Part shown: piece by piece, positions 21,679 through 34,208 of the stretch | Position numbering within the stretch: position 1 is the first letter of the stretch | Layout: the number at the start of each line of letters is the position of its first letter | DNA from: Mucilaginibacter oryzae | GTDB lineage: Bacteria; Bacteroidota; Bacteroidia; Sphingobacteriales; Sphingobacteriaceae | Length of the DNA stretch: 64,000 nt | Direction: 5' to 3' | NCBI RefSeq assembly: GCF_003148845.1 | Contig: NZ_QGHA01000002.1 | Span: 148,572-212,571, forward strand | Made by a program: the position numbers and the translations under genes | Notes under the pieces: model-generated | What the model saw: only the letters and a program-made list of their open reading frames with translations | What the model was told of the DNA's origin: nothing | The model's database searches: none

Positions 21679-23037
21679 ATGAATATTACACAGGAAAAAA
21701 TTAGTGACCTGAATGCGATTGTTAAAATTAACATCAACCCTGAAGATTATCAGCCACGTGTTGAAAAGGCGATAAAAGAAAACGCTAAAAAAGCGAAACT
21801 TCCTGGTTTTCGTCCGGGTATGGTGCCGGCATCGCACATCAAAAAAATGTACGGTAAAAGCATTTTGGTTGATGAGATCAATAACCTGTTGCAAGATACT
21901 TTAAACAACTACATCGACGAGCAAAAACTGGCCGTATTAGGTCAGCCATTGCCTGCTGTTGACGATAACAAAGAATACAACTGGGATTTTGCCGATAATT
22001 TTGAGTTTAGCTACGAGTTAGGCTTAGCACCTGAGTTTGTTATCAACTTTTCATCGCAGGATAAATTAACCCAATACGTTATCAAAATTGACGACGAAAC
22101 CCTGGCTTCACGCATCAAAAACATTCGCCGCAGCTATGGCAAAATGACAAATCCTGACGTATCGGCAGATGATGACGTGCTTTACGCCGAATTGGTTCAA
22201 CTTTCGGCCGATGGTAGTGTTTTTGAGGGTGGGATTACCAATACCGCGTCGGTTCGTTTGGATCAGATCAAAGATGAGGCTATCAAAGCTTCGCTGATCG
22301 GTTTGAAAAAAGGCGATGTTTTGAATTTCGATATCCGTAAGGCATATGATGGCGATGCAGCTAAAATTGCCGGTTTGTTGAAAATTGAAGAAGATGACGC
22401 GGCTGATTTGAGAGGCGAGTTCCAGTTAACGGTAAAAAACGTTAACCGTTTAGAAGAAAGCGACTTAAACCAGGAGTTCTTTGACAAATTATTTGGTGAA
22501 GGTACAGTAACTACCGAAGAGGAGTTCAGGGCTAAAATTACCGAAGAGCTTGAAAGCATGATGGTACAGGATTCGGACCGTAAATTACAGGACGATATTT
22601 ATAAACTGGCCATTGCTAAAGTTGATTTCGCGTTGCCTGATGAGTTCCTGAAACGTTGGTTAAAAGCTACTAACGAAAAATTGAGCGACGAAGAGTTAGA
22701 AGGTGGTTACAACGATTTTGCACAAAACCTGAAATGGACGTTGATTGAAAACAAAATCATTGTTGATAATACCATCGAAATTAAATATGAAGATGTGTTT
22801 GAACTGGCTAAAATCCGTTTAGATCAGCAATTCAGGATGTATAGCCCAACTGCTATCCCTGAAGATCAGTTGGGCCAGTACACCGTTCAGTACCTGCAAA
22901 ACAAAGACAACGCTAACAAAATATTTGAAGAGGTAAAAGCCCTTAAAGTATTTGATTACGTTAAAAGCGTAATCACTTTAGATAAACAGGAGATCCTTTA
23001 CACTGATTTCAGTGCAATGGTTTCTGCAGCGCAGTAA
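21679..23037 (+). CDS. tig: Trigger factor
   Basis: 452 residues. Trigger factor is the ribosome-bound chaperone with peptidyl-prolyl isomerase activity. The N-terminal ribosome-binding domain includes the signature region AKKAKLPGFRPGMVPASHIKKMYGKSI (GFRPGxxP). The middle part (about 150-250) corresponds to the PPIase domain but is divergent, as usual in Bacteroidota. The C-terminal helical arms complete the protein. It precedes clpP and clpX, the order seen widely in bacteria, though long repeat-bearing spacers (519 and 163 nt) separate the genes here. Confidence 0.95.
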   Translation: MNITQEKISDLNAIVKININPEDYQPRVEKAIKENAKKAKLPGFRPGMVPASHIKKMYGKSILVDEINNLLQDTLNNYIDEQKLAVLGQPLPAVDDNKEYNWDFADNFEFSYELGLAPEFVINFSSQDKLTQYVIKIDDETLASRIKNIRRSYGKMTNPDVSADDDVLYAELVQLSADGSVFEGGITNTASVRLDQIKDEAIKASLIGLKKGDVLNFDIRKAYDGDAAKIAGLLKIEEDDAADLRGEFQLTVKNVNRLEESDLNQEFFDKLFGEGTVTTEEEFRAKITEELESMMVQDSDRKLQDDIYKLAIAKVDFALPDEFLKRWLKATNEKLSDEELEGGYNDFAQNLKWTLIENKIIVDNTIEIKYEDVFELAKIRLDQQFRMYSPTAIPEDQLGQYTVQYLQNKDNANKIFEEVKALKVFDYVKSVITLDKQEILYTDFSAMVSAAQ

Positions 23038-23556
23038 TTTTTCTCTCCCTCGGGAGGTTTGTATATTCATCAAAAGCAACTCATCGGGTTGCTTTTGGTG
23101 TTTTACAGAAGTTGTTGTACATCTCGCGCTCGTTTGCAACGAGTGCGAAACTGGGTTGGCGTTTGTAACGCAATTAACTCGTATTGCAAATGCGAAACCA
23201 TATTAAGCGCTCATTGACATCTCGCGCTCGTTTGCAACGAATGCGAAACTGGGTTGGCGTTTGTAACGCCCTTAATTCGCATTACAAATGCGAAACCATA
23301 TTAAGCGCTCATTGCAAATGAGCACAAGGAGGATAAGGAGGATATTTCCGAACGACTGAATTAGCAGAAATAAATCCGTAATGTAACCGCCATGTAACTT
23401 TCGGACTTTTCCGACTTACAGGCTTCCCGACTCAGCAACGCCTCACCAAAAAAATTACTTATTTAAAACTATCTTTTAAAAATAGTATTCAACTAAAAAC
23501 TATATTTAACGCGGGTTAAATACCTGCACTCCTAACAAGAATAATTAACAAAAACC
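23038..23556. other. 519-nt tig-clpP spacer, largely repeats
   Basis: Holds the 98-bp tandem repeat (23119-23314), then a purine-rich AAGGAGGATAAGGAGG run near 23327, then a weak ACTTTCGGACTTTTCCGACTT-type word array near 23396-23435 related to that between clpP and clpX. No gene is visible. Confidence 0.6.
23119..23314. repeat. 98-bp tandem repeat, two copies, palindrome-rich
   Basis: Copies start at 23119 and 23217 and are nearly identical. Each contains GCGCTCGTTTGCAACGA(G/A)TGC, GGCGTTTGTAACGC, TTGCAAATGCGAAACC and AAGCGCTCATTG. The GCGTTTGTAACGC word is shared with the repeats at 9599-9832. Probably a REP-like dispersed element; no linked transposase. Confidence 0.8.
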
Positions 23557-24282
23557 ATGAACAGTAACATCGATAAAAACGAATTCAGGAAATACGCTGT
23601 TAAACATCACCGTATTAACAGTTTATATGTAGATAAATATATTGCTGGCGTTGAACGGAGCAGTTTGCCAACAGGCATCACAACTGTACCAAGTGCCATG
23701 ACTCCTTACATCATCGAAGAACGCCAGCTGAACGTAGCCCAGATGGACGTGTTTTCGCGGCTAATGATGGACCGCATCATTTTTTTGGGTGACGCTATTT
23801 ATGATAGCATCGCAAACATTATCCAGGCTCAGTTGCTTTTCTTACAGTCGGCTGATGCCAAACGCGATATACAGATCTATATCAACTCGCCGGGTGGTTC
23901 GGTATATGCAGGTTTAGGTATTTATGATACCATGCAGTTTATCTCGAACGATGTGGCTACAATTTGTACAGGTATGGCAGCATCAATGGCAGCAGTATTG
24001 TTAGTTGCCGGTACCGAAGGAAAAAGGGCTGCTTTACCGCATGCAAGGGTAATGATTCACCAGCCATCGGGTGGTGCGCAAGGCCAGCAATCGGATATCG
24101 AGATCTCGTATCATGAGATCACTAAACTTAAAAAAGAGCTGTACCAGATCATTGCTGATCATAGCGGTGCGCCTTTCCAAAAAGTTTGGGATGCTTCGGA
24201 TCGCGATTACTGGATGATTGCCGAAGAAGCCAAAGAGTTTGGTATGGTTGACGAGATTTTAAGGGGTAATAAAGGGAAATAA
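23557..24282 (+). CDS. clpP: ATP-dependent Clp protease proteolytic subunit
   Basis: 241 residues. Serine protease subunit that forms the 14-mer chamber served by ClpX. Catalytic Ser143 (GMAASMAAV), His168 (MIHQPSGG) and the Asp in ASDRDYWM are present, with INSPGGSVYAGLGIYDTMQ ahead of them. The N-terminal 35-40 residues (KNEFRKYAVKHHRINSLYVDKYI) are longer than in E. coli and probably include a removed propeptide; Bacteroidota ClpP often has such an extension. Start chosen at ATG 23557. clpX follows after 163 nt. Confidence 0.95.
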   Translation: MNSNIDKNEFRKYAVKHHRINSLYVDKYIAGVERSSLPTGITTVPSAMTPYIIEERQLNVAQMDVFSRLMMDRIIFLGDAIYDSIANIIQAQLLFLQSADAKRDIQIYINSPGGSVYAGLGIYDTMQFISNDVATICTGMAASMAAVLLVAGTEGKRAALPHARVMIHQPSGGAQGQQSDIEISYHEITKLKKELYQIIADHSGAPFQKVWDASDRDYWMIAEEAKEFGMVDEILRGNKGK

Positions 24283-24293
24283 ATAGTCCGGAA

Positions 24294-24404
24294 GTCCGCA
24301 AGTCGGGAAGTCCGAAAGAGAGAATGAGTTTAGTCAGGAAGTCTGGAAATCCGAAAGCAATTTAAGTTTTACTTACGGACTTTCTGACTTCCCGACTTAA
24401 GGAC
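24294..24404. repeat. Imperfect inverted repeat between clpP and clpX
   Basis: Left arm 24294-24318 (GTCCGCAAGTCGGGAAGTCC...) and right arm 24380-24404 match as inverted repeats over 25 nt with about three mismatches. The interval is made of AAGTCCG/GAAATCCG words. A similar word array is at 23396-23435. It may act as a transcription attenuator or mRNA stabiliser. Confidence 0.65.
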
Positions 24405-24440
24405 TCACAATACAGACTTTTTTTTTTCATAGCAATTAAT

Positions 24441-24448
24441 TAACTTTG
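24441..24448 (+). promoter_or_regulatory. -7 promoter element of clpX
   Basis: TAACTTTG is an exact TAnnTTTG match 18 nt before ATG 24467. It covers the alternative TTG start at 24446, so the downstream ATG is the likelier start. Confidence 0.6.
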
Positions 24449-24466
24449 AGTAAGAAAACGAATCAG

Positions 24467-25705
24467 ATGAATAAAAACAGCAAGGAGATCAGGTGTTCGT
24501 TCTGCGGCGCCGGGAAACAAGATTCCCTGATGTTAATTGCGGGGCTTGACGCACATATTTGTGATAAGTGTGTGAATCAGGCTAATGAAATATTGGCTGA
24601 AGAGTTAAAGGTGCGTAAGGTAAAATCGTCGCCTTTGGCACCTGCCTTACTTAAGCCATCAGAAATGAAGGCCCACCTTGATCAGTATGTGATCGGGCAG
24701 GATGATGCTAAAAAGATCCTTTCGGTAGCGGTTTATAATCACTACAAGCGCTTAAACCAGCGTGTGGATAAGGACGAGGTAGAGATCGAAAAATCGAATA
24801 TCATTATGGTAGGCGAAACCGGTACCGGTAAAACTTTGCTTGCCAAAACCCTTGCCAAGGTATTGAATGTTCCGTTTTGCATTTGCGATGCTACGGTTTT
24901 GACCGAAGCCGGTTATGTAGGGGAGGACGTTGAAAGTATCCTTACCCGTTTACTGCAGTCTGCCGATTATGATGTAACCCTTGCCGAAAAAGGCATAGTT
25001 TACATTGATGAGGTTGATAAGATAGCCCGTAAAAGTGATAATGCCTCTATTACCCGCGACGTATCAGGCGAGGGCGTACAGCAGGCCTTATTAAAAATAT
25101 TGGAGGGTACCATGGTTAACGTACCGCCACAAGGCGGCCGTAAACACCCCGATCAAAAAATGATCACGGTAAATACCAGCAATATCCTGTTTATTTGCGG
25201 TGGGGCCTTTGATGGTATTGAGCGAAAGATAGCGAGCCGTTTGCGTACACAAACCGTAGGCTACAAACTGAAAGGTAATGACCACGAGGTAGATGTTAAA
25301 AACATGTACAAGTACATTACTCCACAGGATTTGAAATCGTTCGGTTTAATCCCGGAGTTGATTGGCCGTTTGCCGGTGTTAACTTACCTTAACCCCCTGG
25401 ATCGCGACGCGCTGCACAACATCCTTACCGAACCCAAAAATTCACTGCTGAAACAGTACAAAAAACTGTTTGAATACGAAGGTGTGAAGCTTGATTTTGA
25501 AACCGAGGTGCTTGATTTTATTGTTGATAAAGCAATGGAGTTTAAACTTGGCGCAAGGGGCTTACGTTCGATATGCGAGGCTATCATGATTGATGCGATG
25601 TTCGAGTTCCCATCTAAAAAAGATGTGAAGCGCCTGCATGTAACCCTGGAGTACGCGCACGAGAAGTTTGAAAAATCTGACCTGAAAAAGTTAAAAGTAG
25701 CTTAA
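24467..25705 (+). CDS. clpX: ATP-dependent Clp protease ATP-binding subunit ClpX
   Basis: 412 residues from ATG 24467. AAA+ unfoldase that feeds ClpP. An N-terminal zinc-binding domain (CSFCGAGK ... CDKCV, four Cys) is followed by the AAA+ module. That module has Walker [13 protein letters not shown], Walker [14 protein letters not shown], sensor and arginine-finger region ([10 protein letters not shown]), the [10 protein letters not shown] block with the ClpP-contacting loop, and the C-terminal LGARGLRSI sensor-2 motif. All key residues appear intact. It has its own promoter element, so it can be expressed apart from clpP. Confidence 0.96.
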
Positions 25706-25798
25706 CAGCAAGTATATAAGTAAACACTTATCTTTATTGAAGAATAACGCGGCCCTGGTTATGATACCGGGGTTTGCTGTATAAAAAGGAATTATATT

Positions 25799-26653
25799 AT
25801 GAACGAAGAATTAGATGTAAAGAAAGATGGAGACAACATCCCTAAAGTAAAAGAAGTACAATCTCCCGTAAAATCGGGACTGAAAACCAAGGAAGCTATT
25901 GTGGCCAACTGGTTGCCGCGTTACACCGGCAGGCCGTTGGAGGCTTTTGGCGAGTACATTATCCTTACCAATTTTTCAAAGTACATCCAGCTGTTTTCGC
26001 AGTGGAATGATGACGCGCCTATTATGGGTGTTGATAAGCCGATGCAAAGCGTAACGGCTAATGGCATTACCATCATTAACTTTGGCATGGGCAGCTCTGT
26101 AGCTGCTACGGTAATGGATCTGCTTACCGCTATCCACCCCAAAGCCGTAATATTTTTAGGTAAATGCGGTGGCCTCAAGAAGAAAAATAATGTAGGCGAC
26201 CTGATCCTGCCAATTGCCGCCATTCGTGGTGAAGGTACATCAAACGATTACTTACCGCCCGAGGTGCCCGCCCTGCCTGCGTTCGCGTTGCAAAAGGCTA
26301 TATCAACCACTATCCGCGATTACTCGCGCGATTATTGGACAGGTACCTGTTACACTACCAACCGCCGTGTTTGGGAGCACGATAAAAACTTTAAGAAATA
26401 CCTCAAAGATCTGCGTGCCATGGCAGTGGATATGGAAACCGCTACGATCTTCACCACAGGGTTCGCTAATAAGATCCCTACAGGTGCGCTGTTGCTGGTA
26501 TCAGATCAGCCAATGATTCCCGAAGGTGTAAAAACGGCCGAAAGCGATTCATCAGTTACCGAACAGTTTGTTGAAACCCACCTGCATATCGGTATCGAAT
26601 CGTTAAAGCAATTGATCAATAACGGGTTAACGGTTAAGCATCTTAAATTTTAG
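25799..26653 (+). CDS. amn: AMP nucleosidase (nucleoside phosphorylase fold)
   Basis: 284 residues. The protein carries the PNP/UDP-phosphorylase fold with NFGMGSSVAATVMDLLTAIHPKAVIFLGKCGG (phosphate/ribose pocket) and AVDMETATIFTTGF, the MET/Glu ribose-binding motif. The long first 75 residues and YTTNRRVWEHD match the short Bacteroidota form annotated as AMP nucleosidase, which splits AMP into adenine and ribose 5-phosphate. The exact substrate (AMP against other nucleosides) is known-family inference. Convergent with the macroglobulin-like gene. Confidence 0.85.
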   Translation: MNEELDVKKDGDNIPKVKEVQSPVKSGLKTKEAIVANWLPRYTGRPLEAFGEYIILTNFSKYIQLFSQWNDDAPIMGVDKPMQSVTANGITIINFGMGSSVAATVMDLLTAIHPKAVIFLGKCGGLKKKNNVGDLILPIAAIRGEGTSNDYLPPEVPALPAFALQKAISTTIRDYSRDYWTGTCYTTNRRVWEHDKNFKKYLKDLRAMAVDMETATIFTTGFANKIPTGALLLVSDQPMIPEGVKTAESDSSVTEQFVETHLHIGIESLKQLINNGLTVKHLKF

Positions 26654-26655
26654 TG

Positions 26656-26740
26656 GATGGTTGATGTTTAGTGAATGGTTCATTAGGTTGATTAGGTGAA
26701 TGGTTAGCAAAACCACTCACTCAATCAACTACTCACCACT
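26656..26740. repeat. Imperfect inverted repeat between convergent genes
   Basis: A G/T-rich arm (GGTTGATTAGGTGAATGG words) is followed by a C/A-rich arm (CCACTCACTCAATCAAC). They can fold back on each other and could terminate transcription from both sides. Confidence 0.45.
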
Positions 26741-26755
26741 CACCCAAACAATGAC

Positions 26756-29700
26756 TTAATGACCCACTGACCCAATGACCACACTCTTCATCCCCTCCCT
26801 GCCGTAAAATACCGGGAAATACATCATTTCGGCTTTAGCCGGGTTAAGGGTGTATTTGCCGTTGTAACGGGGGATGAGGTTTATGGTGAAAGTATATTTG
26901 CCCTGTGTTAGTTTGCGGCAAAATATACTCACCTTCTCTTTAAAATACTCCCGGTGAACCTCGTTGTTGGTCCACGTTTGCTCTTTGCCCTCGTAAGAGC
27001 AGCCTGCAGGGATAGGGATTTCTACCATTACAAAATCGGCATCACCGCGGGCTGTTACTTCGGCTTTGAGTTGTATTTTTTCTCCGCCTTTAAGGGTGGT
27101 TATTGTTTTGCCCTCACGCTCAAACCAGGTATTTACGGTAAAATCTTTACTTACCTTTTCGGGTTTACTGTTCCTGTACTGCTGGTATCCGGTTATGTAA
27201 ACGGGCAAACCACCCGTTTTGCTAACGCTGATCTGTTTATCAGTTAACGTAGCCGAGTAAGGGAATTGACTGACGGTTTTTGTTTCCGCCCCGGCAATAG
27301 TAATTTGCGACGGTTTTACCTGTTTGTTGTTGATCAGCATGTCTGGCAGGATGGTTTCGAGTATCAAAGCCGATTCGTAAGTGTTGCGCCATTCTCCGAG
27401 GCGGCGCTGTTCAAGAAAGTAGCTGCGGATTTTAGCCAATAAATCCGGACGATGGCCATCATTTTTGATGATGCGATACGCAAGCACACTAAGTTGTATG
27501 GAGTTATCAAAAAATCTGTAAGCGTTTTCGCCCCAGTACACATTGCCGAACATGGTGTGTTTGGCTGCCGCGAGCAAACTATCCATGTTAATCTTTAAAC
27601 CAGCTTCCTGGCGCAGCAGCATCGTCCGTAGTTGATCATATCCTGATGGTTTATAGTCAGGATTACGTTTGGCTTTGGCCTGCTCCGTTTCAATGATACC
27701 TATATAACGCCGGTAGTCGGCCTTTGCGCCAAGTTTTTGCAGCAAGCGGGCGCACATTATTTTATCCTGCCCTTTGTACCTTTCCATTTCAAAAATAAGA
27801 TAGTCTGCCAGTTTTTGCTTGTCCAGGTCAATCTGGTAACCCTCCTGCCCGGCATCTAAAAGAGCCTCAACCACATGCAGGCTTATCCAAAGCTCGTCGT
27901 TACTCTCTTTCCACCAGCCCCACAGGCCGTTGGCCTTGCGGTTTTCTTTCAGCTTCTTAATTACTTCCTGTACATTTTTACCATATTTAAAATCCTCACC
28001 TAAAAACTTTTTAATGTGCCTTTCCATAATTAAGCCTTTAAGTTTCGACGCTAATTGTTCGTTGCACAGGTATTTGTATTCGCGCAGTTTACGGGTTTCT
28101 TCGGCCAGTACGGGTAGCGCCGAGGCTTCGGCCCTAAAGGTAACCGGGCCTAAACCAGGATCAAATTTTAAAGTAACGGTGGTATCCCGGTCAAGGGCTT
28201 CAAATGAGCCTTTAGTTTCCATCGTACCTTGCGGCATCAACGGGATCTTGCGTTGTTCGCCATCAAAATAGCTGTTATCGCGCTTAATGGTGTATTCAAA
28301 GGTTAGGCTGTCGGCAGAGGAATTAGTGGCAGAAGCAGTTGCAGCTGGCTGGGTAGTTGCAGTTATTTTAAGCGTGTCTATTTTGGAATTTTTAACCTCC
28401 ATCTCGTCCTGTTTAAGTTGCTGCCCGTTATATTTAAAAGTGCGGGTAAGTTTTGCCGGGGTGTTATTGTAGTTCATTACCTTGCCTATCAGGTTCATTT
28501 CATCGCCGGCTATGGCAAATTGCGGCGCGATGAAGTTGGCGCTTAATGGTTTATAGGCTTTAATATTGCTTTCGTTAAAACCAGTTTGTTTGTTGCCGTT
28601 TATGCCGATAATAAAAGTACGCCAGTTGGTGATGTCATCCGGGTAGGTAACCGTAAAACTCGCCTTGCCCTGTTCATCGGTGGTAAGCTTAGGTTGCCAG
28701 TAGGCATAATCCGAAAAGTTTTTGCGTAGTGTTTGGTTGCCAGTACTTTGTGTGCTGTCGGCTTTAGCCCCTGTTAATCCCGGTTTGCCTTTGGTGCGGA
28801 TCACGATAACGCCGTTTGCCCCCCGCGAGCCGTAGATGGCGGTCGCTGCGGCATCCTTCAAAATGCTCATTTCGGCAATATCATCTTTGTTTACATCCCC
28901 GAGTTTATCTAGAATCTCGCCGTCAACCACAATTAGCGGCTGAGCGCCACCCAATGAATTGGAACCCCTGATCATAATTTGGGCCGCTGCGCCCACGTTA
29001 CCATCCGATACCTGGAGCCCGGTAACTCTGCCTGCTAAGATATTACTAACAGATCCCGTCATGGCTGACTTACGTTGTCCGCCGTATCCTACAACCACAA
29101 CCTCCTGTAAGGATTTTGAACTCTCTTTTAAAGCTACTTTGATGTTTGATCCCGGATTAATATTAAACTCTTGTGTATCAAAGCCTATAAAGCTGATAAC
29201 CAATTTGCCGCTTTTAGGTACTTTCAGGCTAAAATGCCCCCGCATATCTGTGGTGGTACCAATAGGTGATCCTTTTACCTTTACAGATACTCCCGGTAAA
29301 GGCTGTTTGTCGCCAACGGCGGTTACAGTGCCGCTCATCCCATCCATAAATATTTCGGTGTCGAGGTATTTTTCGTTAAAGGCTTCTTTAATTTTGAGGG
29401 CGTCGTTTACAATTTCCCCGTCGTTGTTGTTGTATGCTGATTGGCGGTTGTCTATAATATCGCCAATTTTAATACTCACCGAATCTTTGGCATGCGTTGG
29501 CGATACGTCAAAATTATAATAATTGATACCTCCGGTTTTTACGGCTACATTTTCTTTGATGTCATAGGTATCGCCCTTTAATAAAAACAAAAATCTGTAT
29601 TTGCCCGCCTGCAGCCGGTCGATATAGACCGTACTGCCGGGGTAAATCAGCATAAAATCAGGATCGTCATATTTGTAAACAATCACGTTTTTAACCAGCA

Positions 29701-32641
29701 GCGCTTTTCCTTTTGGTTGGCTGATACTTATTTGTAACCTGCCTGTTTCACCTGCAATTTGTGGGTTGTTAAAAAGCTGCTGGCTATATCTCCGTAAATC
29801 AAGATACTGCTGCCATATGTTTTCGGCTTCGGGTTGGGTGAGTACCTGTTGGGTATAATCATCATAAATGCCTTTATAGGATGACAGAACCCGGTTGAAC
29901 GCGGTTGGGATGCTTTTTTGTTTCAACAAGCCGGGCGCAAACAGGTATGAGTATCCTGATTCTGTTTCAAAGTATCTTGGTTTCTCGCCCTGCACATTTA
30001 GTGCGGCAAAGCTGTCTGCAAACGGACCAACAAGCACATCGTTATTTGCATAGTTGTAATTGGGATTGGGATTAATCATGTACAGTGTATTTCCCTGGTT
30101 TAAAAGCGCCATTTTCCACCCAAAATTGTTTACTACGGTAATCAGGTAACGATTAATCAGGCTGCTTTCATAATCGGTCAACGTGTCCGAAACACGTGTA
30201 AACTGCGCGTTATCGGCATTGAGGCTGAAAATCAACTTTTTCGATTTTTCAACCATTATGCTGTCTACCCAAATATTCTGGTGACTGGTACGAAACCTGA
30301 ACGCGTGTTTGCCCGGGGTTACAGCAAAGCTGTAGCGTTTTAATTGCTGGGTTTGGTCAAAATAAACCGGGCGGTTATCAATATAAAGGATATGAACAGG
30401 TATTACATCGCCGTTTTTTACAATGAATGGGGCAACCTGCGTGGTGGTATCCTGTTTAGGGGCTTCTTCTACCTGATATATTTTGTCTGGATGGGTAAAA
30501 CGGTAGTAGCTGATACTATCCAGGCCAATCTCGGTGCTCCACCGTTTCCAGTTAAGTTCAAGTAACCCGCTGCTCCGTATTTCTTCTGTTTTGTAAGGTT
30601 GCTTTTGTTTACGGTAGCGAAACCCTTCGCCCAGGTAAGGCACATAAGGAATTTTATAATCTGCAAACTTGCTGGTCATGCTCCAGGCGGTTAAATCTGT
30701 ACCGGGCACGGGTTTGCCTTTGTTGTCGGTAACTACAATATCTGTTTTGGCCTGCTGGCCGGGATAAACACTTACAGGTTGCCGCACATTAATGGTAAGC
30801 AGCTTATCCCTGTAAATAACGTCGGTGGCTTCGGTTTTACTTTCGCCCGCCCATATGTAGTGTACCTGGAAGTTAACAATTTTTTGCTCGCGGTAAGCCT
30901 TGCGATAAACCAGGCTGTCGGCGTTACCGGCATCTATAAGTTTATCGCCGCCAAATACCGAGTACCAGAAATGAAGGTGCCGTGGATTGTTAACGGTAAC
31001 AAACAATGAATCTGCCGTGCGGTAGCCGGAAAGCGATATATCAGGTGTGTTTTCTTTAAGATCAAGACCAGCATAGGCGCTGTCGGCCTCTATATTGTAA
31101 CTAACCGCGTAAGGGTTGATCATAATTTTGGCGGGCAGCATCATTTTGGTTTTGGATAGCGTGTCATTGCCGGCATCAAGGGCGCTTATAACAGCTGGCG
31201 CTTTAGCTTCCTTTCCGTTTACGTAATAGGCAGCAATCAGCGTATCCGCGTTTAATTTTGCGGTAATATGGAAGGGTCTGTATGTGAAATTCATATCATC
31301 CTGGCTTGACGAGCGGCTTTCATTATTACTGTTTAAAAATTCGGCGTTGATAGCGTAGTTAATATCAGCTTTCGGAAAAATTGAATCGGGGATAGTCAGT
31401 TTTGTTTCGCCTACTGGGTCAAGCTGCAGCTCATGTTTCCAGAGCAAATCAGGCACAAAGGTGTATTTTTGCTGGCGGTTGCCGGTACGCGTTGTGTTGA
31501 GCGTGATGCTGACCCGTCCGTCGGTAACCGGGAGGTTATTTTCGTCAACTGCTTTTAAATACAGCGTTGCAGGGGCGCCGGGCCAATGTTCTTTTCTATC
31601 AACCCGGGTGGTGAAGTTTATTGATTTCAGTTCATACTCTTCGTACTTAAATTCGCCGCTCAGGTAAACTTTACGTTTGCTCAAAAAAGCGCGGTCGTCA
31701 TCGCCTTTGTAATCATCAAGCTTGTATTTTTCGGCATAGAGATCTTCGAGCGTGATGGTATAATCTTCATCCAGCGATAGGTCGAGGCTGTCAGCCAGCG
31801 GGATACTATATTCAAAAGCCCCGTCGCGATAGCTGTTTACCTTGCCGATGATCTTGCCGTCATCATCGTGTCGCTCTTTAAGCCGCACCAGGAGCTGCTT
31901 TGCTTTTATGGGCTGCCGAGATTTGTTAAGTATAAATGCCTTGAATTTTACGGTATCATGCGGTTTGTAAATAGCTTTATTAAATACAATAAAGCCTTCG
32001 TATTTGGATGGCTGGTAATAGTTGCTATGCTTTTTGAACAGATTTTTAAAACGCCGCCAGGTAGCTTTAACAAAGCTCATTTTATAGTATGGGTTGTAGC
32101 GCTGGTAAGGCTGCTGTTGTTTAATGAGGTAGTAATTGCTAACGCCCGCGTAATCAATTTTAAGTATGGAATCTTTTTTTGAAGGATGGCTGATGTACAA
32201 CCCGTTTTGTGCATTATAGGGGATCAGGACGTTATTAAATTGGGCGATGGCGTTGTTGATTGCGTTCCCTTGTTTATCTGCCAATACAAACCTGAGATCA
32301 TAATTATTGGCAAGGATTTTCAAATTGGCCGACCGGTTTTCGATAAGCGAATACTCCAGTTTATTTCGCTTTGCCACAATCTTCATGTAGTTTCCTGCCG
32401 GAAGCGTGTTTTTCCAAGAGTCATCGGTTTTAAATGAATCGATAGGGTTTTGCAGTATTTTTTCGTCGGGTTTTTTGTTGGGATACCTGTAAAACTTTAA
32501 AACGTCATTGTTGGTTATTTTATATATGTAGGTATAATAACTGCTTTGCCTGCCTGGCGTTAAAGGTTTTTGGGCGTAAGCGACGCACGCGAAAAATAAA
32601 AACAGTACAGGTAGCAGTTTTTTTGTGATTTTTAATAGCAT
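26756..32641 (-). CDS. Alpha-2-macroglobulin-like protein with inserted carboxypeptidase-regulatory and TonB-plug domains
   Basis: 1961 residues with signal peptide MLLKITKKLLPVLFLFFACVAYA-Q. The N-terminal 1000 residues are macroglobulin (MG2-type) beta domains (YEGFIVFNKAIYKPHDTVKFKAFI; ATLYLKAVDENNLPVTDGRVSI). At about 1102-1180 a carboxypeptidase-regulatory-like domain appears (MSGTVTAVGDKQPLPGVSVK). A SusC-type plug follows to about 1280 (LQEVVVVGYGGQRKSAMTGS, IMIRGSNSLGG, ILKDAAATAIYGSRGANGVI). Then the A2M block (TNWRTFIIGINGN) and the helical domain with a thioester-type CxEQ (Cys1526-Gln1529 in YLCNEQ). There is no beta-barrel. Likely a periplasmic or surface envelope-defence or transport-linked protein; the role of the plug is unknown. 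Confidence 0.88.
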   Translation of the reverse strand: MLLKITKKLLPVLFLFFACVAYAQKPLTPGRQSSYYTYIYKITNNDVLKFYRYPNKKPDEKILQNPIDSFKTDDSWKNTLPAGNYMKIVAKRNKLEYSLIENRSANLKILANNYDLRFVLADKQGNAINNAIAQFNNVLIPYNAQNGLYISHPSKKDSILKIDYAGVSNYYLIKQQQPYQRYNPYYKMSFVKATWRRFKNLFKKHSNYYQPSKYEGFIVFNKAIYKPHDTVKFKAFILNKSRQPIKAKQLLVRLKERHDDDGKIIGKVNSYRDGAFEYSIPLADSLDLSLDEDYTITLEDLYAEKYKLDDYKGDDDRAFLSKRKVYLSGEFKYEEYELKSINFTTRVDRKEHWPGAPATLYLKAVDENNLPVTDGRVSITLNTTRTGNRQQKYTFVPDLLWKHELQLDPVGETKLTIPDSIFPKADINYAINAEFLNSNNESRSSSQDDMNFTYRPFHITAKLNADTLIAAYYVNGKEAKAPAVISALDAGNDTLSKTKMMLPAKIMINPYAVSYNIEADSAYAGLDLKENTPDISLSGYRTADSLFVTVNNPRHLHFWYSVFGGDKLIDAGNADSLVYRKAYREQKIVNFQVHYIWAGESKTEATDVIYRDKLLTINVRQPVSVYPGQQAKTDIVVTDNKGKPVPGTDLTAWSMTSKFADYKIPYVPYLGEGFRYRKQKQPYKTEEIRSSGLLELNWKRWSTEIGLDSISYYRFTHPDKIYQVEEAPKQDTTTQVAPFIVKNGDVIPVHILYIDNRPVYFDQTQQLKRYSFAVTPGKHAFRFRTSHQNIWVDSIMVEKSKKLIFSLNADNAQFTRVSDTLTDYESSLINRYLITVVNNFGWKMALLNQGNTLYMINPNPNYNYANNDVLVGPFADSFAALNVQGEKPRYFETESGYSYLFAPGLLKQKSIPTAFNRVLSSYKGIYDDYTQQVLTQPEAENIWQQYLDLRRYSQQLFNNPQIAGETGRLQISISQPKGKALLVKNVIVYKYDDPDFMLIYPGSTVYIDRLQAGKYRFLFLLKGDTYDIKENVAVKTGGINYYNFDVSPTHAKDSVSIKIGDIIDNRQSAYNNNDGEIVNDALKIKEAFNEKYLDTEIFMDGMSGTVTAVGDKQPLPGVSVKVKGSPIGTTTDMRGHFSLKVPKSGKLVISFIGFDTQEFNINPGSNIKVALKESSKSLQEVVVVGYGGQRKSAMTGSVSNILAGRVTGLQVSDGNVGAAAQIMIRGSNSLGGAQPLIVVDGEILDKLGDVNKDDIAEMSILKDAAATAIYGSRGANGVIVIRTKGKPGLTGAKADSTQSTGNQTLRKNFSDYAYWQPKLTTDEQGKASFTVTYPDDITNWRTFIIGINGNKQTGFNESNIKAYKPLSANFIAPQFAIAGDEMNLIGKVMNYNNTPAKLTRTFKYNGQQLKQDEMEVKNSKIDTLKITATTQPAATASATNSSADSLTFEYTIKRDNSYFDGEQRKIPLMPQGTMETKGSFEALDRDTTVTLKFDPGLGPVTFRAEASALPVLAEETRKLREYKYLCNEQLASKLKGLIMERHIKKFLGEDFKYGKNVQEVIKKLKENRKANGLWGWWKESNDELWISLHVVEALLDAGQEGYQIDLDKQKLADYLIFEMERYKGQDKIMCARLLQKLGAKADYRRYIGIIETEQAKAKRNPDYKPSGYDQLRTMLLRQEAGLKINMDSLLAAAKHTMFGNVYWGENAYRFFDNSIQLSVLAYRIIKNDGHRPDLLAKIRSYFLEQRRLGEWRNTYESALILETILPDMLINNKQVKPSQITIAGAETKTVSQFPYSATLTDKQISVSKTGGLPVYITGYQQYRNSKPEKVSKDFTVNTWFEREGKTITTLKGGEKIQLKAEVTARGDADFVMVEIPIPAGCSYEGKEQTWTNNEVHREYFKEKVSIFCRKLTQGKYTFTINLIPRYNGKYTLNPAKAEMMYFPVFYGREGMKSVVIGSVGH

Positions 32642-32846
32642 AGGTATTGTCTTATATGGTAATATAATCTTTTTGCTTTAAGTCTCAAGTTCTAAGTTGA
32701 AATGCTACCCCCAACTCCTGACTTAATACTTCTAACTTCAATAAGATGCAGATGTATTTACTATTCCATAAAAGAAATATCATTTAAGAAACTTATTTTT
32801 GAGCCGTAACCCTGCTTTATATACCGGGTTAGTAGAGATTTGAATT

Positions 32847-34208
32847 ATGTGGTACGATAACATACTCCAAACCATAGGCAACACGCCGTTGGTAAAGCTT
32901 AACAAAATAGCTAAAGATATCCCGGCAACGGTTTTAGCCAAAATAGAAACAACCAATCCAGGCAACTCGATTAAAGATCGTATGGCCCTTAAAATGATCG
33001 AGGATGCCGAAAAAAGCGGTAAGCTAAAACCCGGCGGAACCATTATTGAAGGTACATCGGGCAATACGGGGATGGGCCTTGCCATTGCCGCCGTGATTAA
33101 AGGCTATAAATGTATATTCACCAGTACTGATAAGCAATCTAAAGAGAAATTTGATGCTTTGCGTGCCTTTGGTGCCGAGGTAATTGTTTGCCCTACCAAC
33201 GTTGAGCCGGAAGATCCGCGTTCGTATTATTCGGTATCATCGCGCCTGGAAAGAGAGGTGCCGAATTCATGGAAACCCAACCAGTACGATAATCTGAGCA
33301 ATTCGCAGGCGCATTACGAATCAACCGGTCCGGAAATTTGGGAGCAAACCGAAGGTAAGATTACCCACCTTATTGCCGGTGTAGGCACCGGTGGTACCAT
33401 ATCAGGCATTGCCCGTTACCTGAAAGAAAAGAACCCGGCCATCCAGGTTTTGGGTATTGATACCTATGGCTCGGTTTTTAAAAAGTACAAGGAAACAGGC
33501 ATTTTCGATAAAAACGAGATCTATCCGTACATTACAGAAGGCATCGGCGAAGACTTTTTGCCGGCCAATGTCGACTTTAATCTGATAGATCATTTTGAAA
33601 AAGTAAGCGACAAAGATGCCGCCCTCATGACCCGCGAAATTGCCCGCAAGGAAGGGATCTTCTCAGGCAACTCAACAGGTTCGGCCGTGGCCGGCTTGCT
33701 GCAAATGAAGGACAAGTTTAAAGAAGGCGACGTAGTGGTCATTATTTTCCCGGATCACGGCACCCGCTACCTCGGCAAAATGTATAACGACGACTGGCTG
33801 CGCGACCGAGGTTTCCTGAAAGATGGAAAACTAACCGCCCGGGATATCATTGCCAAAAAAGATGTTCAGGAGATTATTACCATTGATTGCGAAAAGAGCG
33901 TGCTGGAAGCTATTAACACCATTAAATCGCTCAATATTTCACAAATCCCGGTTACGCAAAAAGGCATGGTAATAGGCAAGATCACCGAGAGTGATATCCT
34001 CGATTCGCTGATCGAAAACCCTTCCATCAAATCGCAGCCGATAAAAAATATTACCACCGCGCCATTTCCGTTTGTTGATCTGAATACATCGATAGACAGG
34101 ATCTCGGCCATGATCAATAAAGACAATATCGCTGTGCTGGTTGAGGATGAGCAGGGCAGGATTGAGATTATCACCCAGTATGATATCATCAATGCTATCT
34201 CGGCTTGA
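32847..34208 (+). CDS. Cystathionine beta-synthase with CBS pair
   Basis: 453 residues. A fold-type II PLP enzyme (1-330) is followed by a tandem CBS domain (about 340-453). PLP lysine is Lys43 in NPGNSIKDR; GTSGNTGMGLA and the glycine loop GVGTGGTISG hold the cofactor; FPDHGTRYL ends the catalytic part. The CBS pair (ISQIPVTQKGMVIGKITESDIL, NIAVLVEDEQGRIEIITQYDI) usually senses adenosyl ligands. The reaction is L-serine plus homocysteine to cystathionine; a cysteine-synthase-like activity is the main alternative. A 13-bp hairpin follows at 34259-34300. Confidence 0.93.
   Translation: MWYDNILQTIGNTPLVKLNKIAKDIPATVLAKIETTNPGNSIKDRMALKMIEDAEKSGKLKPGGTIIEGTSGNTGMGLAIAAVIKGYKCIFTSTDKQSKEKFDALRAFGAEVIVCPTNVEPEDPRSYYSVSSRLEREVPNSWKPNQYDNLSNSQAHYESTGPEIWEQTEGKITHLIAGVGTGGTISGIARYLKEKNPAIQVLGIDTYGSVFKKYKETGIFDKNEIYPYITEGIGEDFLPANVDFNLIDHFEKVSDKDAALMTREIARKEGIFSGNSTGSAVAGLLQMKDKFKEGDVVVIIFPDHGTRYLGKMYNDDWLRDRGFLKDGKLTARDIIAKKDVQEIITIDCEKSVLEAINTIKSLNISQIPVTQKGMVIGKITESDILDSLIENPSIKSQPIKNITTAPFPFVDLNTSIDRISAMINKDNIAVLVEDEQGRIEIITQYDIINAISA

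Follow-up and report, generated by a model that had tools for sequence, protein, structure and literature searches.

In A2Ms, the bait region determines which proteases are caught. The YfhM/ECAM-type A2Ms of E. coli and Salmonella are lipoproteins whose bait is short and disordered; they also contain an MG7 domain (PF00207), a CxEQ motif, and a bMG10 domain with an EXMY motif. SusC/RagA transporters combine an NTE, a TonB box, and a plug bearing the SusC signature with an outer-membrane barrel. The complement proteins C3, C4, and C5 contain an anaphylatoxin domain, which is folded. This domain is an addition at the cleavable site of a protein of the A2M superfamily, as described in PMC9352918. 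Lastly, the Bacteroidota encode short MG2-plug proteins of about 800-900 residues. Of the 22 examined, Pfam recognizes an MG2 domain in 21 and a plug in 14; they have no thioester domain, and the plug is followed by an MG7-like end (RSTIYWxP..TDxxG), recognized by eye and by weak HMM and tblastn matches, to which Pfam MG7 gives no match.

The protein described here is encoded by Mucilaginibacter oryzae, in a window of 64,000 nucleotides. It shares MG7, CxEQ, and bMG10 with EXMY with the YfhM/ECAM type, but it has no lipobox, and an NTE, a TonB box, and a plug reside at its bait position. These three elements are those of a SusC/RagA transporter; however, the barrel is missing, the plug, whose length varies, is shorter by about 20 residues, and the module is embedded in another protein. 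As in C3, C4, and C5, a cleavable site would hold an extra domain, but the anaphylatoxin domain is unrelated, whereas the domain in this A2M-plug protein is transporter-derived and includes a TonB box. We found no report of an A2M joined to a plug in the open-licence literature searched, an absence that is weak evidence. That the putative bait derives from the plug of gate proteins of the cell itself, and retains the box, suggests what bacterial A2Ms guard, namely TonB-dependent gates. The A2M-plug protein also raises the questions of whether a half-folded bait can be used by a bacterial thioester trap, and whether a TonB box can work outside a transporter.

Domain layout and the bait position

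The gene occupies positions 26756..32641 of the minus strand, to which all feature coordinates below refer, and is an intact open reading frame of 1961 residues with an ATG start. A signal peptide was called by eye at residues 1-23 (32573..32641), with the cleavage site inferred between VAYA and Q. A lipobox pattern is absent from the first 35 residues in all 30 orthologs compared, M. oryzae included. The protein is therefore predicted to be periplasmic or secreted. A candidate MG2 domain is placed by Pfam at residues 216-283 (31793..31996), where PF01835 scores 30.0 bits, slightly below the curated cut-off of 32.8. Ahead of the insert, MG5/MG6a was placed at about residues 545-660 (30662..31009) by profile-profile comparison, in which residues about 545-647 match MG5/MG6a of 21 Bacteroidia A2Ms (probability 92, E 7e-7). 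Between MG6a and the NTE lies a beta-rich inserted region without a family name, delimited by a structure model at residues 700-1090 (29372..30544). The Pfam search gave no match there, and pLDDT is mostly 74-95 in our first model, with dips near 856-865 and 1066-1075.

The SusC-derived module follows. The NTE (CarbopepD_reg_2) spans residues 1103-1183 (29093..29335; Pfam, 70.6 bits). The TonB box, LQEVVVVGYG, was assigned to residues 1178-1187 (29081..29110), with VVVVGYG at 1181-1187, from ortholog conservation and from its placing, which is that reported for Bt1763, where the Ton box DEVVVTG also follows the NTE (PMC7782687). A shortened SusC-type plug is recognized by Pfam and the SusC models at residues 1194-1278 (28808..29062); Plug (PF07715) scores 38.9 bits (cut-off 23.9), the LKDAAATAIYGSRGANG motif occupies residues 1261-1277, and the SusC signature, TIGR04057, scores 59.6 bits at residues 1254-1284 (cut-off 46.2). 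The NCBIfam SusC model TIGR04056 covers residues 1103-1288 only, corresponding to model positions 4-209 of 981, with 207 bits against a cut-off of 368. The match stops at model position 209 and MG7 comes after the plug; the outer-membrane barrel is absent. An earlier note on this DNA had proposed a complete regulatory-like and plug pair, without a barrel, inside an A2M. The Pfam and NCBIfam models agree on the pair and on the missing barrel, and both NTE and plug are present, but the plug is not complete: only Pfam positions 21-107 are matched, and the first 20 are missing.

A variable post-plug linker, defined by identity, length, and pLDDT, extends over residues 1285-1305 (28727..28789). It leads into an RKNF segment and MG7 at residues 1306-1397 (28451..28726), assigned by Pfam and by alignment to human post-bait residues; MG7 (PF00207) scores 60.5 bits at 1313-1397, above its curated threshold of 21. 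Sequence and ortholog conservation place the thioester motif CNEQ at residues 1526-1529 (28055..28066). Pfam thioester-domain (TED) families gave no match in the protein at E 0.1; the assignment of this region is based on matches to the E. coli A2M (ECAM), by residues 1319-1886 at E 4.5e-10 and by the family profile over residues 1500-1594. At the C-terminus, Pfam finds a bMG10 domain at residues 1841-1943 (26813..27121; 59.1 bits), and the EXMY motif, here EMMY, is placed by ortholog conservation at residues 1938-1941 (26819..26830).

To locate the insert relative to the human protein, residues 1300-1392 were aligned with human A2M 726-818, which sets TGNQTLRKNFSDYAYW on PHTETVRKYFPETWIW. The human bait region is given as 690-728 in PMC8267569, in what we take as the numbering of the 1474-residue chain. 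Because the flanks align on both sides, with human A2M after the insert and with the 21 Bacteroidia A2Ms before it, the insert takes the place of the bait, with MG6a before it and MG7 after it. The earlier placement of the module "between macroglobulin domains" is thus correct, and is sharpened here to the MG6-MG7 bait position. The Pfam bait domain PF07703 (A2M_BRD) gave no match in the protein at E 0.1. The location of the module at the bait position, which the earlier note overlooked, suggests a role in protease sensing. Human A2M is reported to remain a functional trap when its bait is fully replaced (PMC8267569).

Recurrence of the domain order and conservation of its parts

Full-length orthologs with NTE and plug occur in at least 30 of 201 genomes of the family, M. 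oryzae included; this count is a lower bound, since two candidates were scored per genome. The other family orthologs are 32-67% identical to the M. oryzae protein, and in L015 the plug is, by eye, largely decayed while the TonB box remains. A collection of named genomes encodes 318 relatives, of which the best 80 were examined. They include proteins from Mucilaginibacter, Pedobacter, Chitinophaga, Niabella, Pontibacter, Flammeovirga, and Marinilabilia, among which Chitinophaga, Flammeovirga, and Marinilabilia belong to three separate Bacteroidota orders (NCBI); the nearest is from Mucilaginibacter sp. SMC90, with 74% identity in the best segment. Six of the 80 frames are shorter than 1820 residues (L216, L217, L226, L228, L231, L248), four of which start at a contig end. 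An HMM of the plug, built from the 30 orthologs with the box included, scores above 25 bits in 78 of the 80, reaching the end of the signature in 77 and covering the whole model in 74; L251 matches the box half only, and L270 and L280 fall below 25 bits. In 77 of the 80, the plug through the signature persists, down to about 33% identity, and the distance from plug end to MG7 is 5-23 residues. The TonB-box pattern is found in 68 of the 80. A fusion unique to one assembly, named in the earlier note as the result that would speak against it, or an assembly artefact, is ruled out by the at least 30 family genomes and the 77 named relatives; the domain order is recurrent.

Plugs also precede MG7 directly outside the clade with CNEQ, in L073, L076, and L081-L083 (1972-2237 residues, with other thioester motifs), and in L071 (2164 residues), which has no CxEQ. 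The short MG2-plug proteins suggest that plugs ahead of MG7 are a more general habit of the Bacteroidota. The genome of M. oryzae itself encodes short MG2 proteins of 791-908 residues at four loci (L033, 5343-7793; L034, 5943-8666; L035, 3327-6053; L036, 2119-4494). They lack a thioester domain but end in the MG7-like stretch; a plug is recognized by Pfam in L033 and L034, and the others look degenerate.

The putative trap motifs are retained alongside the plug. The thioester-type CxEQ pointed out earlier is indeed kept, as CNEQ in 30 of 30 orthologs and as CxEQ in all of the best 80 of the 318 named-genome relatives (77 CNEQ, 3 CSEQ). After the bait, R-x-N-F-x-D is present in 30 of 30 orthologs, and the looser R-x-[NHRYD]-F in 74 of the 80. 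E-x-MYFP is likewise found in 30 of 30 orthologs and in 74 of the same 80. In the E. coli A2M, RDDR and EXMY motifs are reported to mediate binding of the cut bait to the C-terminal domain (PMC4498604).

Mean identity among the 30 orthologs was compared over 12 stretches picked by us rather than over systematic windows. Of the 12, the TonB box ranks first, at 84%, followed by the CNEQ surroundings (75%), bMG10 (72%), the SusC signature (70%), MG7 (67%), and MG6a (59%). Residues 700-1090 (52%), the NTE (50%), the stretch following the box (49%), and the plug core (47%) are lower, and the linkers, variable in length, reach 33-37%; the post-plug linker (columns 1285-1304) is at 33% and 15-25 residues long. 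In 25-residue windows, residues 1926-1950 reach 86%, above the TonB box. In the M. oryzae protein, the box-to-signature length is 99 residues, and the transporter median is 119. Up to the end of the signature, it is 85-119 in 33 A2M plugs (median 101), as against 112-139 in 33 transporter plugs (median 119; Mann-Whitney p 6e-11, relatedness ignored); 16 of 82 rows in which the patterns were not found were skipped, and the transporters had been strong hits in earlier searches rather than drawn at random.

These data bear on whether the module has a role at all. A fragment of SusC could have landed in a tolerant bait site and persisted there without a role of its own, as the reported tolerance of the human bait would permit (PMC8267569), and as a plug that is shortened, variable, and sometimes lost might indicate. 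Set against this are the retention of the plug through the signature in 77 of 80 relatives, down to about 33% identity, the conservation of box and signature, which greatly exceeds that of the other parts of the module, and the occurrence at the same site of plugs of another transporter type, in L139 (by Pfam), L075 (just under the cut-off), and L078 (by eye). We consider such a passenger rather unlikely.

Predicted structure and a bait made from a plug

Structure prediction, proposed in the earlier note as a check, gave two models of modest quality. In the first, from the 30-row alignment (pTM 0.54), the entire plug was of low confidence. A second model, of residues 1095-1410, was made with 69 rows, 31 of them from transporters (pTM 0.34); its pLDDT is 93-98 for the NTE, 82-91 for the second half of the plug, predicted as strands and one helix, and 75-88 for MG7. 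By contrast, the box and the first half-plug (about 1175-1234) remain at 36-59, and the post-plug linker is below 50. That is, NTE and second half-plug are predicted to fold, but box and first half are of low confidence. The idea that the whole plug is unfolded was dropped, as the second half is predicted with confidence once transporter rows are added. The modelled NTE matches the solved SusC NTE 9hfj (TM 0.86 by target length, rmsd 1.1-1.2 Å), and the closest solved structures of the NTE-plug segment are SusC homologs.

Our preferred interpretation, to which we assign a probability of roughly 45% on the basis of sequence, is that the A2M-plug protein works as a thioester trap, with a remodelled SusC plug for its bait, and is docked at TonB through the box. 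The TonB box and half-plug stretch, together with the linker that follows, would be the cleavable bait, because plugs without their barrel are prone to be floppy and accessible to proteases. Bait-like traits of the protein are the divergent linkers of variable length, the low pLDDT of the box, first half-plug, and post-plug linker, and the shortening of the plug relative to transporters. Upon cleavage of the bait, the RKNF segment would be released and the thioester exposed, and the protease would be coupled covalently, as in other A2Ms. The conserved box would dock the trap at TonB and keep it next to the transporters, gates through which foreign proteins may come in. Proteolytic cleavage of a SusC plug has been reported by the authors of a structure, who suggest ejected plugs as the target (PMC7782687), and the isolated plug of FepA is described as behaving as unfolded (PMC11658791). 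The link to TonB is plausible, given the conservation of the box and its persistence in some A2Ms with a reduced plug; in the same account of Bt1763, mutants of the Ton box behaved as non-functional (PMC7782687).

Several observations count against parts of this interpretation. Extension of the human bait is described as predisposing A2M to collapse, which argues against a large insert as bait; elongation by disulfide reduction, according to the same source, left A2M native (PMC9352918). The second half of the plug, predicted to be folded, argues that the module is not simply an unstructured bait, and the retention of the SusC signature at 70% identity argues against a pure bait, which would not need it. 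Docking by the box is called into question by relatives that bear a plug but in which the box is altered or lost: it is altered or missing in L026-L028, weak in L233, and not clear in L238.

Origin and surroundings of the module

The NTE-box-plug segment is 37-48% identical to the 31 aligned transporter rows. The best match of the insert at the DNA level in the M. oryzae genome is 82% over 77 bp, and there is thus no sign of recent gene conversion from the organism's own SusC genes. Many separate captures of the plug were considered as an origin. In a tree of 73 plugs, the A2M plugs are scattered, with 9 changes, of which well supported branches force at least 4; 17 of 90 rows had been dropped, namely 8 duplicates and 9 that were long-branch, short-type, or odd. 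A tree of 82 rows gives 10 changes. However, the best tree with a single group of A2M plugs is not rejected (AU p 0.27 for all 38 A2M plugs, and 0.31 when the group is limited to the 31 from the CNEQ clade). Distances between plugs correlate with those between A2M cores (r 0.49, a value reached in 0 of 999 permutations; 75 rows, weak ones dropped), which fits mainly vertical descent.

The likeness to transporters could itself be the function. The module might mimic plugs and thereby divert to the trap the bacteriocins, phage proteins, or proteases that act on transporters. A segment that stays SusC-like, at the identities given above, and the presence of at least two transporter plug types at the bait site would fit such a decoy. 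Nonetheless, the module is no close copy of the organism's own transporters, and we know of no attacker that would be diverted; we regard this possibility as very unlikely.

No gene within 7 kb is common to more than 24 of the 80 loci compared, that of M. oryzae included. The commonest neighbours, a CBS/PALP gene (24 of 80), AMP nucleosidase (21), and ClpX (21), look like housekeeping genes. In M. oryzae (21679-34208), the A2M gene is on the strand opposite to flanking genes that resemble trigger factor, ClpP, ClpX, AMP nucleosidase, and CBS/PALP, and those flanking genes are common to about a quarter of the compared loci. Nothing in these loci favours the SusD-like partner that the earlier note had suggested for the plug, nor was anything seen in favour of the gating of another pore. 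The neighbourhoods likewise speak against a module that binds a part of a transporter, be it an empty SusC barrel, a SusD, or a partner of the NTE, for targeting or quality control rather than for trapping, as does the retention of the trap motifs. The conserved SusC signature would fit such binding, as would two short relatives, L036 and L197, whose neighbours on the same strand are a DUF4249 gene and a receptor-like gene encoding NTE and plug. On balance, this role seems the least credible of those considered here. These rows of genes, each including the short MG2 gene, span 2119-8516 in L036 and 3365-9836 in L197; in L197 the row is adjoined by a gene for a GH106 rhamnosidase.

Parts of the TonB system at the bait site of other A2Ms

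MG7 is present in 69 of 90 Bacteroidia genomes, in 123 listed rows, of which 68 were examined: 60 that represent roughly every second full-length frame, and 8 that had been fetched earlier. A SusC-type plug scores above 25 bits in 5 of the 68 (the M. oryzae protein, L067, L070, L072, and L073), a rate biased upward because some of the 8 earlier rows had been chosen for having a plug, and in 0 of the 60; L139, which is among the 60, has a Pfam plug of a different type. A full plug is therefore found in a minority of Bacteroidia A2Ms. The plug of L067 scores 110 bits with an HMM made from A2M plugs, and went undetected by Pfam at E 0.01. Over the 330 residues that precede MG7, the 60 A2Ms contain A2M_BRD in 35 cases, bMG6 in 21, CarbopepD_reg_2 in 15, Plug in 1, and TonB_C in 1 (E 0.001).

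A TonB box can be present at this site without a full plug. By eye and by score, such boxes were seen among the 60 in L132, L125, L121, and L124, and more weakly in L105 and L130. With a matrix of the box derived from 33 of 38 transporter rows, and shuffled proteins as background, 5 of the 60 A2Ms exceed the 99th percentile, and all five sites lie within 330 residues before MG7, where a share of about 18% would be expected; the fifth of these A2Ms, L126, may be a chance match. The best site of the box falls in this interval in 20 of the 60, as against 10.7 expected. In the named clade, the box stays while the plug is mostly gone in L251 and L280, and L270 has a differently worded box and a partial plug. 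An A2M of 1560 residues, L161 (G201:C20), contains a TonB C-terminal domain (PF03544) at 764-839 (E 1.8e-10), ahead of MG7 at 885, with MG2 and a thioester domain present. No second A2M with such a domain, spanning both, was found among the matches listed for 296 genomes of the phylum.

These cases bear on a different use of the box, in which force exerted by TonB would unfold or extract the half-plug and arm or fire the thioester, so that trapping would be tied to the proton-motive force. The box leads the 12 compared stretches in conservation and is N-terminal to the plug, as in transporters; it outlasts a reduced or lost plug in L251, L280, L121, L124, L125, and L132; and in L161 a TonB C-terminal domain is found at the same site. 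The alteration or loss of the box in some members stands against such a mechanism, as does the firing of human A2M, in which the bait is described as being cleaved and then retracting from the central channel (PMC9352918). We judge firing by force to be quite improbable. A broader proposal covers both docking and pulling: by binding the box inside the bait, TonB would control where and when the thioester fires, and the bait site would be a socket for parts of the TonB system. Judged from sequence comparison, this is unlikely. If it were true, the bait site of Bacteroidota A2Ms would be a general socket, which has received the box, at least two plug types, and one TonB C-terminal domain, and the result would be an immune device of the envelope, posted at the gates of transporters.

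Mixed remnants of plugs were also seen. L283 seemingly has two plug types in tandem before MG7, a VYYIDGxKVRG type and then one with the SusC-type signature. In L124 (G257:C11), at about residues 1175-1225, scraps of plug appear in swapped order, with GKVAGVRIRG ahead of the TonB-box-like NEVVVTGMG.
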